Origin: Alphaproteobacteria bacterium
Lineage (GTDB): Bacteria; Pseudomonadota; Alphaproteobacteria; Puniceispirillales; UBA1172
Reading direction: 5' to 3'
Length of the DNA: 35,016 nt
NCBI GenBank assembly: GCA_024639485.1
Contig: JAHEII010000009.1
Location: 1 to 35,016 of the forward strand
Numbering within the stretch: position 1 is the stretch's first letter; every line of letters starts with the position of its first letter. This document shows positions 4,584 to 22,550 of the stretch, in pieces. Position numbers and translations under genes: made by a program. Below the pieces are notes generated by a model, which saw only the letters and a list, made by a program, of their open reading frames with translations, did no database searches and was not told where the DNA came from.

Positions 4584-6644
4584 TTAATTATCAAGGAAAC
4601 TTCTCAGTTTCTTAGACCGTGACGGATGCTTAAGCTTACGCAAGGCTTTTGCCTCAATCTGTCGAATCCGTTCGCGCGTTACGCTAAACTGCTGGCCGAC
4701 TTCTTCCAGAGTATGATCAGAGTTCATGCCGATGCCAAAACGCATCCGCAGAACACGTTCTTCACGCGGCGTTAATTCTGCCAGAACAAGCGTTGTTTTG
4801 GCTCGCAAGCTCACATAAATGGCGGAATCAAGCGGCTGAACAGCGTTCTTGTCTTCGATAAAGTCACCCAGATGGCTATCGTCTTCATCACCAACAGGGG
4901 TTTCCAGACTAATCGGCTCTTTAGCAATTTTCAGAACATTCCGCACCTTATGAATGGGCATGGACAGCTTTTCCGCCAATTCTTCAGGCGTCGGTTCACG
5001 GCCAATTTCATGAAGCATCTGCCGTGATGTCCGCACCAGTTTATTAATCGTTTCAATCATATGAACGGGAATACGAATAGTTCTGGCCTGATCAGCGATT
5101 GAACGGGTAATTGCCTGTCTGATCCACCATGTGGCATAAGTTGAAAACTTATACCCACGGCGATATTCAAATTTATCAACAGCCTTCATCAGACCGATAT
5201 TGCCTTCTTGGATCAGATCAAGGAATTGCAATCCACGATTCGTATATTTCTTGGCAATAGATATCACTAGCCGCAGATTAGCCTCAACCATTTCCTTTTT
5301 GGCGCGTGCCGCCTCACGTTCGCCGCGCTGGATCACTTGAATCAGCTCTTTGAACTCAGACACGGACATACCAATCTCGGTCATCATCTGGATAATGGAT
5401 TTGCGAATTTCTTCAATTTCTTCGGTGTGATTTTCACGAAGTTTCTTCCATCCGGCGGTATCGGCTTCTTCTGGTGGCCATTCTTTATCCAGCTCATGCC
5501 CTGACCAGAACCCCAGAAATTGCGGACGCTTGATATTACATTTCATTGAGATGCGTAACATCTGGCCTTCTAGTGAAGACAGATGTTTGTTAAGTCCGTA
5601 AAGCTGTAACATCAGCGCTTCTATCCGGCCGGTGTTCAGCAGGATATGTTCCATCTGTTCAATCAGCTTTAGCCGGAGAGAGATATAGCGTTCTTCTGTT
5701 TTGGCATTGACGCTAGACCCTTTTTTGAACTGAACAATGCGTTTATCACGCAATTGGCTTAGCTCTTTATAGGTGACAAAAACGTCTTCCATTTTTTGCA
5801 TGACATCGTCACGGATAGCGTCTTCCATGGCGGCCAGTGACATATTCAGATCATCGCCGTCATTATCATCATCATTATCGCTATCGCTTGAATCCTTATC
5901 GCCGCCGCCATCTTCGCCTGATTCGGCATTATCATCTTCGTCTTCGTCTTCGTCTTCATTAGACTCGGTTTTGATGTTCAAACCTGTGCTGTTGATTAAA
6001 ATACTGTCATCATCATCGGTAGCAATGGCAATAGCCGCGCTGTCTTCACCGTTGATACGGGTAAAGGTTGTTTCCAGATCAATGACATCACGCATCAAGA
6101 CCAGGCCTTGTTCAATCTCATCACGCCACTGGATTAACGCACGGATAGTCAATGGCGATTCGTAAACACCGCCAAGCATAAGCTCACGCCCAGCTTCTAT
6201 CCGTTTGGCAATGGCAATTTCACCTTCACGGGTTAACAGCTCAACTGTTCCCATTTCCCGCAGATACATGCGCACCGGATCATCAGACCCACGGCTTTCA
6301 TCGCTAATGTTACCGGCTGGGGTATTTGATGTGCCTTCGCTGTCGTCACTGTCTTCGACCACGTCTTCCTGATCGGCGTTATCGACAACATTAACTCCCA
6401 TTGAGTTCAATTCAGCCATAACATCTTCGATTTGTTCAGACGTAAGCTCACCTTGCGGTAATGCTTTATTTAATTCGTCATGCGTAACAAATCCGCGCTC
6501 GCGACCAGTTTTGATCAGCGTTTTGATCGCTTCATCAGAAATGTTTACCGATTCGCCCGAATCATTACTAGCGGACTTTGCTAGCGATTCGCTTTCGGAC
6601 AATTGCTCATCGGTTTGTGATTTCTTCTTCTTGCTTTGTGCCAT
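4584..6644 (-). CDS. rpoD: Primary RNA polymerase sigma factor RpoD (sigma70)
   Basis: The housekeeping sigma factor, which directs core RNA polymerase to -35/-10 promoters. Region 1.1 is at the N-terminus, region 1.2 is '[18 protein letters not shown]', the region 2 core includes '[19 protein letters not shown]' and '[17 protein letters not shown]', and region 4 ends in '[19 protein letters not shown]'. The non-conserved region between 1.2 and 2 contains an extreme acidic stretch at about residues 225-266, partly encoded by a 6-bp tandem repeat. The track starts four codons earlier at 6656, but a GGGA motif is better placed before MAQSKKKK, so I use 6644 (686 aa). It lies 29 bp after dnaG in the classic macromolecular-synthesis order. 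Confidence 0.96.
5935..5958 (-). repeat. Hexanucleotide tandem repeat inside rpoD
   Basis: On the plus strand TCTTCG occurs three times in a row, followed by one TCTTCA, within the acidic linker of rpoD. On the coding strand this gives alternating Glu-Asp codons. The array is in frame, so gain or loss of units would lengthen or shorten the acidic tract without a frameshift. Confidence 0.75.
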
Positions 6645-13300: not shown

Positions 13301-13548
13301 AAGTAATGCAGGGACGGCCACATGCCGTTGATTTTATGCTGGATGGAAAAATTGATCTGGTATTCAATACGGCACAAGGCGAAGCGTCAATCAAGGATAG
13401 CTTTTCATTGCGCCAGACAGCTCTGACGAATAATATTCCCTATTATACCACCATACCAGAAGCCAAAGCCGCCGTTACCGCGATCCAAACAATTAAAAAA
13501 GATACTCTTGCAGTTCGGTCTATCCAATCTTATCTAAATAATAATTAA
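10303..13548 (+). CDS. carB: Carbamoyl-phosphate synthase large subunit
   Basis: Makes carbamoyl phosphate from bicarbonate, ammonia and two ATP. Full length at 1081 aa. The N-terminal carboxyphosphate half opens with '[18 protein letters not shown]' and contains '[12 protein letters not shown]' and the ATP-grasp loop '[12 protein letters not shown]'. The second, carbamoyl-phosphate half opens with '[17 protein letters not shown]' near residue 568 and contains the ATP-grasp loop '[11 protein letters not shown]'. The final 140 or so residues form the MGS-like allosteric domain ('[18 protein letters not shown]'). The start is the canonical [10 protein letters not shown], overlapping the end of carA. 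greA follows 61 bp later, possibly on the same transcript. Confidence 0.97.
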
Positions 13549-13609
13549 TTTTTTTCTGGCAAAATGGCATAAGTCCTTGCTAGATTTAAATAAAGATAAG
13601 GATATTGCT

Positions 13610-14089
13610 ATGGAAAAAGTTCCATTTACTGCTTCTGGACTTGAAACGATCAAGACAGAATTGATGAAATTAAAAACCGAGGAACGGCCTGCGGTCATCA
13701 AAGCTATTGCCGCGGCAAGAGAACATGGTGATTTATCAGAAAATGCCGAATATCACGCCGCCCGTGAACGCCAGTCATTTATTGAGGGGCGTGTCGCCGA
13801 GCTAGAAGACGTGGTTAGTCGGGCAGAAGTTATTAATACATCACAGCTCACTGGTGAGACGATTACGTTTGGCACTATCGTTACCGTTGCTGACGAAGAC
13901 ACAGACGAAGAATCCGAGTTTTCTATTGTTGGCCCTTATGAAGCCGATTTATCCAAAGGGTTGATATCAACATCCTCACCTATTGCCAGAGCGCTGATAG
14001 GTAAGCGCGTGAGCGACAGCGTAGAAGTCCGGACACCACGCGGAACAAAAATGTTTGAAGTGATCGGCGTCAAGCTTCTAAACTCCTAG
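13610..14089 (+). CDS. greA: Transcription elongation factor GreA
   Basis: Rescues backtracked RNA polymerase by stimulating transcript cleavage. The N-terminal coiled-coil domain contains the hallmark 'REHGDLSENAEYHAARERQ', whose acidic tip acts in the secondary channel. The C-terminal FKBP-like domain runs from about residue 80 ('TFGTIVTVADEDTDEESEF') to 'PRGTKMFEVIGVKLL'. The track start adds 11 non-family residues. ATG 13610 has AAGGA seven bases upstream and gives 159 aa, the normal length. Its stop lies only 6 bp from the stop of the convergent Lrp-family gene. Confidence 0.96.
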   Translation: MEKVPFTASGLETIKTELMKLKTEERPAVIKAIAAAREHGDLSENAEYHAARERQSFIEGRVAELEDVVSRAEVINTSQLTGETITFGTIVTVADEDTDEESEFSIVGPYEADLSKGLISTSSPIARALIGKRVSDSVEVRTPRGTKMFEVIGVKLLNS

Positions 14090-18096: not shown

Positions 18097-18125
18097 TTCA
18101 CGATACGCTAACAATGCCCTATATT
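18097..18125 (+). promoter_or_regulatory. Candidate uvrB promoter placed for a leaderless transcript
   Basis: TTCACG, 17 bases, TATATT (4/6 and 5/6 to consensus). The -10 ends only seven bases before the uvrB ATG at 18133, so initiation would fall at or next to the start codon. No Shine-Dalgarno motif is seen upstream of that ATG, which fits leaderless translation. No LexA-type box is present. Confidence 0.4.
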
Positions 18126-18132
18126 GTCCTTT

Positions 18133-20232
18133 ATGGATGATAATAGTCTTACAAAATCTGTTCAGCCGCTTTTTGCTGATGAATACGATAAACATATACC
18201 GCTTCGGCTGGAAACCGATTACGAACCTGCTGGTGATCAGCCAGCGGCTATTCGTGATCTGGTTGATGGGGTCACGCAAAATGAACGCGATCAGGTGTTA
18301 TTGGGGGTAACCGGTTCCGGCAAAACATTCACCATGGCGCATATTATTTCTGCCATGCAGAAACCATCGCTTATTCTCGCGCCAAATAAAACACTGGCGG
18401 CACAGCTTTATGGTGAGATGAAAACGCTGTTTCCGGATAATGCGGTTGAATATTTTGTGTCTTATTATGATTATTATCAACCCGAAGCCTATGTTCCCCG
18501 TTCCGATACCTTTATCGAAAAAGAAGCAACCATCAACGAACAGATTGATCGCATGCGGCATAGCGCAACCCGTGCTTTACTGGAACGCCGTGATGTGGTG
18601 ATTGTGGCCTCGGTGTCCTGCATTTATGGCATTGGTTCTGTTGAAACCTATTCCGGCATGGTGATCCGGTTGCTGAAAGGCCAGCGCATCGAACGCCAAC
18701 AGCTATTGCGCCAGTTAACTGAATTACAATATTCCCGAAATGACATGTCTTTTCAGCGCGGCTGTTTCAGAGTACGTGGCGATGTTGTTGAAATCTTCCC
18801 CGCCCACCTTGAGGTCAGCGCATGGCGCATATCTCTATTCGGCGATGAAATTGAATCCATCACCAGCTTTGATCCACTTACCGGACAACGCGACGATGAT
18901 CTGGATTCGGTTCGTATATTTGCCAATTCGCATTACGTCACCCCGAAACCAACACTTCAGCAAGCCAGCAAGAGCATCAGGAAAGAGCTCAAAACCCGTC
19001 TGCATGAACTAGAACAGGGTGGGCGACTGCTAGAAGCCCAGCGACTGGAACAGCGCACTAATTTTGATCTGGAAATGATCGAAGCCACCGGCGTTTGTAA
19101 CGGCATTGAAAATTATTCACGTTATCTATCTGGCCGTGGTCAGGGTGAACCGCCCCCAACATTATTCGAATATCTGCCCAAGGACGCGTTGCTTTTTATT
19201 GATGAAAGCCATGTGACTGTGCCGCAAATTGGCGCCATGTATAAAGGCGATAGAGCACGCAAAACGACTTTATCCGAATATGGCTTCCGTCTGCCATCCT
19301 GTCTTGATAACCGGCCGCTTAAATTCGAAGAATGGGATGCGTTCAGGCCGCAAACAATTTATGTTTCTGCCACACCTAGCACATGGGAGCTGGAACAAAC
19401 CGGCGGGGTATTCGTTGAACAGATTGTCCGGCCAACCGGATTGGTTGAACCGCCATGTATTATCCGGCCAACCGAACATCAGGTTGATGACGTGATTGCC
19501 GAATGCCGTGAGGCTAGTGTAAAAAACCAGCGGGTGCTAATCACCACACTAACCAAGAAAATGGCTGAGGATTTAACCGAATATATGCATGAAGCCGGAG
19601 TTAAAGTCCGCTATATGCATTCTGACGTGGAAACCCTCGAACGGATTGAGATTATTCGTGATCTGCGGTTAGGTGTGTTTGATGTTTTGATTGGCATTAA
19701 CCTGTTGCGTGAGGGGCTGGATATTCCGGAATGTGCGCTGGTCGCTATTCTGGATGCCGATAAAGAAGGCTATTTGCGGTCACGCACATCACTGGTTCAA
19801 ACGATTGGCCGCGCCGCCCGCAATGTCGAAGGACGCGTTATTCTTTATGCGGATAAAATGACCGGAAGCATGGAATATGCCATATCCGAAACTGACCGGC
19901 GACGCACAAAACAGCTGGCCTATAACGCGGCCAATAACATCACGCCAGCCACCATTAATTCAAAAATCAAAGATATCCTCAGCTCAGTCCATGATCGCGC
20001 GGATCGGGTGGAAGTATCAACAGAAACTGGCCCCATGGTGGGTAAATCCATGCGTGATACTGTGGCAAGTCTGGAACAGAAAATGCAGAATGCCGCCGCT
20101 AATCTGGAATTTGAAGAAGCCGCCCGTATCAGAGATGAAATTCGCCGATTAGAAGCCTCAGAACTGGAAATTGGCTCTGCCCCGCAACTGGCATTCAAAC
20201 GAAACGAACGTCACCGCAGAAAAAAAACCTAA
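18133..20232 (+). CDS. uvrB: Excinuclease ABC subunit UvrB
   Basis: The damage-verification helicase of nucleotide excision repair; it loads with UvrA and recruits UvrC. Walker A is '[13 protein letters not shown]'. The beta-hairpin that clamps DNA is in '[20 protein letters not shown]', the DEAD-like motif is '[15 protein letters not shown]', and the helicase C motif includes '[21 protein letters not shown]'. The C-terminal UVR domain ('[18 protein letters not shown]') binds UvrC. The TTG track start at 18124 is replaced by ATG 18133 (699 aa). uvrC follows after a 359-bp AT-rich gap, so the two are neighbours but probably not one transcript. Confidence 0.97.
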
Positions 20233-20591
20233 ATAAATCCGTGCCTTGGGTTTTTGTCTTAAATCAGCCAGATAGGTAACTTCACGGCGTAACTTGTTAA
20301 CAACACAAGATTTTTGAAATAAATCGTTCAAAAAACAGACATTTCATAAATATTTTTAATAAAAACTTTTCACTTGATATTATCTAACATATTGAAAAAT
20401 ATACATTTTGACTATTATGCCTAATTTTTGTGCAATTTTGTATTTTTGGCAGAATAGTCCGATTCCTGTTCAGGTTTGGGAATGATATCCACAACTTTAT
20501 CCACAGATTCAGGGGATGACAAAGTTATACGCGATTCGGTGTATAAAAACCGCCATACCACCTTGGCAATAGCACGAAATTAGCACACATT
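20233..20591. other. AT-rich, origin-like intergenic region between uvrB and uvrC
   Basis: A gap of 359 bp with no supported gene. Its left part holds a palindrome (TTGTTAACAA, 20294-20303) and an inverted repeat (TTTTTGAA-N8-TTCAAAAA, 20311-20334). The middle (about 20310-20455) is strikingly AT-rich with A and T runs. The right part carries two tandem DnaA-box matches and three GANTC sites. A loose promoter-like pair (ATGACA...TATAAA) precedes uvrC. An unwinding element plus DnaA boxes plus CcrM sites is what an alphaproteobacterial origin would show, but a DnaA-regulated promoter is equally possible. Confidence 0.4.
20485..20505 (+). promoter_or_regulatory. Two tandem DnaA-box matches
   Basis: TTATCCACA at 20497-20505 is a perfect match to the TTATNCACA DnaA box. 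ATATCCACA at 20485-20493 differs at the first base. Both face the same way, 12 bp start to start, right beside the AT-rich tract. Confidence 0.55.
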
Positions 20592-22550
20592 ATGACTATG
20601 ACTGATCCCGCACCAGATAAAACCGGCAAAAATACATCTTTGCCTGCTGAAGACACAAAAACAGCCAAGGATACGGCTTTGCCTGATCTTAATCACGGGT
20701 TGCAGATTATCCGTGATATGGCAAGACGTCTGGATACCAGCCCCGGTGTTTACCGGATGCTGGGGCATGATGGTCAGGTGCTTTATGTAGGTAAAGCCAA
20801 GGGCTTGAAAAGCCGCGTTCTCAGCTATACCCGTGCGAACGGATTAAGCCACCGCTTAACCCGGATGGTTGCCGAAACCCGAAGTATGGAAATCATCACC
20901 ACCCGCACCGAAGTAGAAGCGTTATTACTGGAATCCAATTTGATCAAAACGCTGAAACCGCGTTTTAATATCCTTCTTCGTGATGATAAAAGCTTTCCGT
21001 ATATAATGATCACACGCGATCATGAATGGGCACAGATTAACAAGCATCGCGGATCACGCAAGCGCAAGGCGTGGTGGTTCGGGCCCTTTGCATCAGCCAA
21101 CGCGGTCAACCGCACGGTAACAGAATTAACACGCGCGTTTTTATTGCGGAACTGTTCAGATTCTGTTTTTTCGGCACGGACACGGCCTTGTCTGCAATAT
21201 CAGATCAAGCGATGCACCGCTCCATGCGCGGGCAAGATCAGCAAAGAGGATTACCAGAAACAGGTGGATCAGGCAGTACGCTTTCTTAACGGTGAATCGC
21301 GATCCGTACAGGATGAATTCGCAACCTATATGCAAGCCGCCGCAGAAGAATTGAGGTTTGAGGATGCCGCGCTCTGGCGCAACCGGATTCGTGCTCTTAC
21401 CATGATACAGGCGCATCAGGATATTAATCTGCCGGGTGAGCTGAATGCAGATATCATAGCCTTTACCAGCGATAGCGGACGCAGTTGTGTGCAGGTGTTT
21501 TTCATGCGCAACGGATCTAATTTTGGCAATCGGGCCTATTTTCCACGCCATGATAAAGACGATGAACCCGCCGCTATTATTGCCGCTTTTATCGGCCAGT
21601 TTTATGATGATAAACCACCACCACCTGATATTTTTGTTAATCATGCCATGCCAGAAGCCGCACTAATAACAGAAGCCCTGAGCAATAAAGCTGGCCGGAA
21701 AGTGCAGATATCTGTTCCTGCCCGTGGCCAGCGCCGAAAATTAATGGCTAATGCCGAACGTAATGCCCGCGAAGCACTGGCCCGAGAGCTAACAGCCAGC
21801 TCTACCCAGAAAAAAATGCTGGATGCCGTTCAGGAATTATTTGATCTTGATGAACGCCCCGGCCGCATAGAAGTTTATGATAATTCCCATATTCAGGGCA
21901 GTCATGCGGTTGGTGCCATGATTGTTGCCGGCGAAGATGGATTCATGAAACCGTTTTACCGCAAGTTTAACATCGATAAAGATAAAACAGACACCGAACA
22001 AACCGGCATTGGCGGTGATGATTATGCCATGATGCGTGAAGTATTAACCCGGCGATTTTCCCGCGCTATCCGCGAAGACCCTGATCGGGAAACTGGCATC
22101 TGGCCTGATCTGGTTTTGCTTGATGGCGGCAAAGGCCAGTTATCAACGGCAAGAGAGGTCATGAATACGCTTGGTATTACCGATGTCCCCATGGTTGCTA
22201 TATCCAAAGGCGTTGACCGTAACGCCGGCCGGGAAGAATTCCATCAAACCGGTAAAGACAGTTTTAATCTGCCGCATCATACGCCTGTTCTGCATTTCTT
22301 ACAGCGTTTGCGTGACGAAGCTCACCGTTTTGCCATTGGCGCGCACAGAACGCGCCGGTCTGCCGCACAGAAAAGTAATCCGCTTGACGATATTCCGGGC
22401 ATAGGTGCATATAGAAAGAAATCATTATTAACGCATTTTGGTTCTGCCAGAGCAGTGGCAAACGCCGATATTCCCGATTTGATGAAAGTAAATGGTATAT
22501 CACAGCATGTTGCCGATATCATTTATCATTGGTTTCATGATAAAAGCTAA
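20592..22550 (+). CDS. uvrC: Excinuclease ABC subunit UvrC
   Basis: Makes the dual incisions in nucleotide excision repair. After a polar N-terminal extension of about 45 residues comes the GIY-YIG nuclease ('SPGVYRMLGHDGQVLYVGKA'). A cysteine cluster follows ('CLQYQIKRCTAPCAG'), then a UVR domain near residue 250 ('MQAAAEELRFEDAALWRNRI'), the RNase H-like endonuclease ('IEVYDNSHIQGSHAVGAMI', 'WPDLVLLDGGKGQLSTA'), and C-terminal helix-hairpin-helix motifs ('IPGIGAYRKKSLLTHFG'). At 652 aa it is slightly longer than E. coli UvrC, mainly through the N-terminal extension; a start at the second methionine would differ by only two residues. It leads the pgsA-Moco gene run. Confidence 0.96.
   Translation: MTMTDPAPDKTGKNTSLPAEDTKTAKDTALPDLNHGLQIIRDMARRLDTSPGVYRMLGHDGQVLYVGKAKGLKSRVLSYTRANGLSHRLTRMVAETRSMEIITTRTEVEALLLESNLIKTLKPRFNILLRDDKSFPYIMITRDHEWAQINKHRGSRKRKAWWFGPFASANAVNRTVTELTRAFLLRNCSDSVFSARTRPCLQYQIKRCTAPCAGKISKEDYQKQVDQAVRFLNGESRSVQDEFATYMQAAAEELRFEDAALWRNRIRALTMIQAHQDINLPGELNADIIAFTSDSGRSCVQVFFMRNGSNFGNRAYFPRHDKDDEPAAIIAAFIGQFYDDKPPPPDIFVNHAMPEAALITEALSNKAGRKVQISVPARGQRRKLMANAERNAREALARELTASSTQKKMLDAVQELFDLDERPGRIEVYDNSHIQGSHAVGAMIVAGEDGFMKPFYRKFNIDKDKTDTEQTGIGGDDYAMMREVLTRRFSRAIREDPDRETGIWPDLVLLDGGKGQLSTAREVMNTLGITDVPMVAISKGVDRNAGREEFHQTGKDSFNLPHHTPVLHFLQRLRDEAHRFAIGAHRTRRSAAQKSNPLDDIPGIGAYRKKSLLTHFGSARAVANADIPDLMKVNGISQHVADIIYHWFHDKS

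Follow-up and report, generated by a model that had tools for sequence, protein, structure and literature searches.

Results

The gap between uvrB and uvrC

The window analysed here is the whole stretch of 35,016 nucleotides (positions 1-35016) from an alphaproteobacterial contig of the order Puniceispirillales. Membership of the class Alphaproteobacteria is also indicated by the gene content and by the named matches. In this window, uvrB and uvrC are separated by a 359-bp gap (20233-20591), in agreement with the coordinates given in a preliminary description of the same DNA; the gap is 67% AT. The features of the locus are as follows.

18124-20232, plus strand: uvrB, the upstream neighbour, named from its sequence and homologues
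20300-20460, no strand: AT-rich tract, 78% AT, no function assigned
20461-20465, no strand: GANTC site upstream of the triad; it lies about 20-25 bp before box III in most relatives of family f1
20485-20493, plus strand: DnaA box III, ATATCCACA, one mismatch, at the same position in 24 relatives
20497-20505, plus strand: DnaA box II, TTATCCACA, perfect, 12 bp from box III (start to start)
20506-20510, no strand: GANTC site (GATTC) that exactly fills the 5 bp separating box II from box I
20511-20519, minus strand: DnaA box I, inverted and degenerate, AGGGGATGA on the plus strand, 14 bp from box II (start to start)
20533-20537, no strand: GANTC site downstream of the triad
20592-22550, plus strand: uvrC, the downstream neighbour, in the same orientation as the triad

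The two inverted repeats that were said to flank the AT-rich tract proved to be imperfect and of a kind that is ordinary for AT-rich DNA. A scan for sigma-70 promoters returned promoter-like sites only at chance level, and a terminator scan returned three terminator-like stems, every one of them on the minus strand.

A module of three DnaA boxes

The preliminary description had listed a perfect DnaA box and, 12 bp away in the same orientation, a second box with one mismatch, and both are present (boxes II and III). The inverted box I was absent from that list, and it was the recognition of this third box that allowed the element to be identified. The complete triad (20485-20519) reads ATATCCACA act TTATCCACA gattc AGGGGATGA. 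When the uvrC upstream regions of 24 relatives were aligned, the boxes formed a module with strict spacing, in which two boxes in forward orientation are separated by 3 bp and followed, after a further 5 bp, by a box in reverse orientation.

Three boxes at this spacing, with box I opposite to boxes II and III, are common to the Escherichia coli sites DARS1 and DARS2 (PMC5742627). The window triad has the same arrangement of orientations and the same start-to-start distances of 12 and 14 bp; it is intergenic and, judged from the distances between uvrC and hemE in relatives, located between oriC and the terminus. On the opposite strand of the E. coli K-12 bioD-uvrB gap, the sequence TAATACACA tgg TTATCCACA ggaat AGTGGATAA constitutes DARS1.

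Conservation of the triad

Upstream of uvrC, the triad scored 22-25 (matches out of 27) in all 24 tested relatives, which belong to three of the order's four families (f1-f3), while shuffled sequences reached at most 19. Among 21 relatives, the box columns carried 1.4-1.9 bits compared to 0.2-0.5 bits in the flanks; box II was the most conserved part (1.90 bits per column), box I reached 1.39 bits, and the 60 bp upstream of the triad, on the side of the AT-rich tract, were weakly conserved at 0.54 bits per column. Comparison across relatives, a check proposed in the preliminary description, thus showed strong conservation of the DnaA boxes rather than their loss. In the five genomes of the fourth family (f4, L104-L108), the region upstream of uvrC scored at shuffle level and lacked the triad. 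In these f4 genomes, uvrB and uvrC are just 65-141 bp apart, and Hda-like and CcrM-type genes are still present.

With up to three mismatches allowed, six of the seven genomes that were searched contained no match other than the site upstream of uvrC; the seventh (G001) had one extra match with three mismatches that overlaps the uvrC site on the other strand. Across the class, a degenerate core pattern matched 82 of 385 genomes, whereas the reversed-pattern control matched none of the 385, and neither did patterns in which both gaps were changed by one base each way. Of 30 class loci that we fetched, about 20 had uvrC directly downstream, co-oriented every time. To count occurrences independently of the motif, 28 class genomes were picked without reference to it, and a triad with a score of at least 18 lay within 500 bp upstream of uvrC in 18 of them (including G144 despite its poor box I), a result matched by none of 100 shuffles. 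About ten of the 28 lacked a triad near uvrC; in G168, which is outside the 18 counted, it lies about 600 bp upstream. In alphaproteobacteria, the distance between triad and uvrC is mostly about 50-400 bp, and the orientation is constant.

Approximately one third of the fetched class matches do not adjoin uvrC (L147-L152, L154, L162, L168). Two of them (L148 and L149) are next to a small heat-shock protein gene and one (L162) is next to ndk; it is possible that the loci away from uvrC are relocated or second DARS-like sites.

The same triad at other genes

A scan of 84,980 species genomes yielded at least 117 triad loci among the matches listed. These matches include uvrC-linked triads in Komagataeibacter, Asaia, Acetobacter, Novacetimonas and a Rhodospirillales bacterium, and uvrB-linked triads in Citrobacter, Klebsiella, Photorhabdus, Rodentibacter and Shewanella. 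Large groups of beta- and gammaproteobacteria have the triad at places specific to the lineage, mostly upstream of priA (at least 22 loci among the matches listed), between xseA and an exbB/tolQ-like gene (at least 10-11), or near hemW (at least 12-14), with the names of these genes taken from our reading of the sequences. No triad among the matches listed was beside dnaA, dnaN or mnmG, and one was 2.3 kb from an rsmG-like gene. The occurrence of the same triad at uvrB, priA, xseA/exbB or hemW in other lineages shows that it is not bound to a single gene.

GANTC sites in and around the triad

Three GANTC sites within 77 bp, starting at 20461, 20506 and 20533, had been reported as far above chance. 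The sites are there, but their clustering is less rare than proposed: although GANTC is depleted across the window (69 sites compared to 131.6 expected from shuffles), two further triples within 77 bp occur at 5890-5966 and 6550-6590, so the cluster by itself is not striking. In the 60 bp after the triad, 21 relatives average one GANTC per 58 bp compared to one per about 507 bp in the window, and the spacer that parts box II from box I contains GANTC in 16 of 86 alphaproteobacterial sites compared to 5 of 109 other sites. The positions of GANTC near the triad vary among relatives, and none occurs near the site in family f2. The conserved boxes back the earlier proposal of a DnaA-binding regulatory element, the origin aside, and its surroundings are enriched in GANTC. 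Because a CcrM-type methylase gene (RAMA domain) and Hda-like genes are encoded and GANTC is enriched by the triad, methylation control of the triad is possible on sequence grounds. At a different locus near the skew minimum of the complete congener G004 (L043, G004:C1:874001-878000), we observed 56 GANTC sites in 4 kb, or 28 per 2 kb compared to about 6 elsewhere.

The probable chromosomal origin at hemE

The hemE|RP001 region is the origin neighbourhood in Caulobacter. In the genome from which the window derives (G000), hemE (C121:12340-13353, minus strand) and ppsR (start at about 13729, plus strand) flank a gap (G000:C121, approximately 13354-13729) with two perfect DnaA boxes at 13444 and 13630, 186 bp apart. 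The preliminary description had itself remarked that typical origin neighbours are not visible around the uvrB-uvrC gap, and hemE and ppsR/RP001 do indeed flank this other place.

The assembly consists of 198 contigs, and GC skew was sampled in two complete relatives, G004 and G007. In G004 (2.33 Mb), a region of constant negative skew (-0.13 on either side) surrounds the uvrB-uvrC gap at 642 kb. Skew switches sign at about 862-873 kb, where we find the cluster dnaQ-coaE-maf-ppsR / hemE-rho, which we take to be the alphaproteobacterial origin neighbourhood (hemE/ppsR gap at G004:C1:866881-867213). In G007, uvrC is at 0.40 Mb, and hemE, at 2.49 Mb, falls within the interval of the sampled sign change (between 2.45 and 2.6 Mb). 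The genes uvrC and hemE are 225 kb apart in G004 and 608 kb apart in G016; in G007 the distance is about 615 kb, and in G022 it is 760 kb. The skew minimum, which was to be sought at the gap, is therefore at hemE in both complete relatives, and the suggestion of a bacterial origin between uvrB and uvrC does not hold: skew and the separate hemE|ppsR gap rule out a chromosomal origin. A plasmid origin was also ruled out, as no similar plasmid record was found.

Two side observations concern G004. Its hemE (L109) is just 59-61% identical to the hemE of congeners, compared to 73-83% for uvrB and uvrC. Another pair of perfect DnaA boxes (1739274 and 1739424; L137, G004:C1:1734001-1745000) shares its stretch of DNA with genes for a ParA-like ATPase and a plasmid-replication-like protein; this stretch is probably an integrated plasmid or phage-like element.

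Discussion

By analogy with E. coli, we consider the triad to be probably a DARS-type site that converts ADP-DnaA to ATP-DnaA and that probably overlaps a DnaA-responsive uvrC promoter. In E. coli, ADP is released when DnaA molecules on boxes I and II make head-to-head contact (PMC8682772, PMC5742627), and our alignments indicate that the conserved feature of the triad is precisely this head-to-head box I/II geometry. As at DARS1, the ADP-DnaA molecules on boxes I and II would meet head-to-head and would then release ADP; apo-DnaA would leave the triad and rebind ATP. In this way, the triad would provide ATP-DnaA for the following round of initiation at the hemE|ppsR origin. The ADP-DnaA itself would be made by RIDA, which we infer from encoded Hda-like genes whose matches are below the curated cut-off.

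DnaA bound to the triad would also tune uvrC transcription, as at DARS1 over uvrBp3. Such tuning is probable because the triad keeps a constant orientation and a position that is mostly 50-400 bp ahead of uvrC. Because E. coli uvrB is repressed by DnaA through boxes that overlap DARS1 (PMC6015884), a similar added role at the uvrC promoter is likely for the triad. Speaking against a DARS-type site are the degenerate box I in the window, family f4, and the sampled class genomes without a triad near uvrC.

The constant position and orientation fit a promoter role as well, and one could suppose that the boxes merely repress or activate uvrC, linking repair to replication with no nucleotide exchange. 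The uvrC-linked alphaproteobacterial triads are invariably upstream and co-oriented, and the E. coli uvrB precedent (PMC6015884) favours this view as well. We nevertheless regard a pure promoter as unlikely, if credible, since the exact geometry, including the inverted box I, is kept while the neighbours and their orientation differ by lineage (uvrC, uvrB, priA, xseA, hemW) and since the distance to uvrC ranges from about 50 to 400 bp and extends to 600 bp in G168. A site that titrates DnaA and leaves its nucleotide state unchanged is highly improbable. In E. coli, DnaA can be titrated by clusters of its boxes away from oriC, and one strong plus two weaker boxes could act in this way, but there are just three boxes, and titration needs no fixed spacing, in conflict with the zero of 385 genomes that match once both spacings are shifted by one base. 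An AT-rich tract adjoining DnaA boxes and GANTC sites also recalls an origin, chromosomal or secondary. This reading is hardly tenable given the two perfect boxes at hemE|ppsR, the location of uvrC inside a replichore of constant skew sign in G004 and G007, the negative skew on both sides of the gap in the window, and the poor conservation of the AT-rich tract.

A DARS-type site at uvrC would matter in several ways. Inactivation of DnaA by HdaA is known in Caulobacter-type bacteria, and in the literature we examined we found no description of a chromosomal site that regenerates ATP-DnaA in them. The candidate comprises about 35 bp, and its location can be predicted in many families, so small deletions would give a direct test of ATP-DnaA regeneration. 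That the triad recurs by uvrB, uvrC, priA and xseA, and that DARS2 lies at mutH, suggests that DnaA recharging is linked in general to genes for DNA repair or restart. More speculatively, and we think it rather doubtful, the single-copy uvrC site may recharge alphaproteobacterial DnaA with CcrM methylation of GANTC in or beside the triad tying its use to the cell cycle; if true, chromosome position, methylation and excision repair would all feed one initiation switch.

Comparison with known systems

DARS1/DARS2-like sequences are conserved in many proteobacterial species according to a review (PMC10380432), and conservation of the DARS2 core has been described for gammaproteobacteria (PMC4245941). 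We found no report of a uvrC-linked DARS in the literature on DARS with alphaproteobacteria, Caulobacter or uvrC, a coverage outside which the original 2009 paper (Fujimitsu) lies.

Alphaproteobacterial hemE-linked origins resemble the gap in having DnaA boxes by AT-rich DNA and GANTC sites. They differ in that the organism's own hemE|ppsR gap is separate and its boxes are arranged differently, 186 bp apart. DARS2, in the mutH promoter region (L142; boxes at 636 forward, 650 reverse and 662 reverse), shares the three-box core arrangement but has its own regulatory region, which spans about 400 bp and contains sites for IHF and Fis; Fis is reported only from E. coli and related gammaproteobacteria (PMC4245941).

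The closest counterpart is DARS1. Its box order, orientation and spacing are identical to those of the window triad, its box III TAATACACA aligns in register with ATATCCACA, and its box I has the same offset and orientation. Both sites are intergenic, beside an excision-repair gene and distant from oriC (PMC5835720). DARS1, however, is at uvrB, where it sits in the promoter and overlaps uvrBp3, whereas the window triad is upstream of uvrC and points the other way with respect to its repair gene. The window site, known here from its sequence, further differs in its weaker box I and in the GANTC sites in and around the triad.
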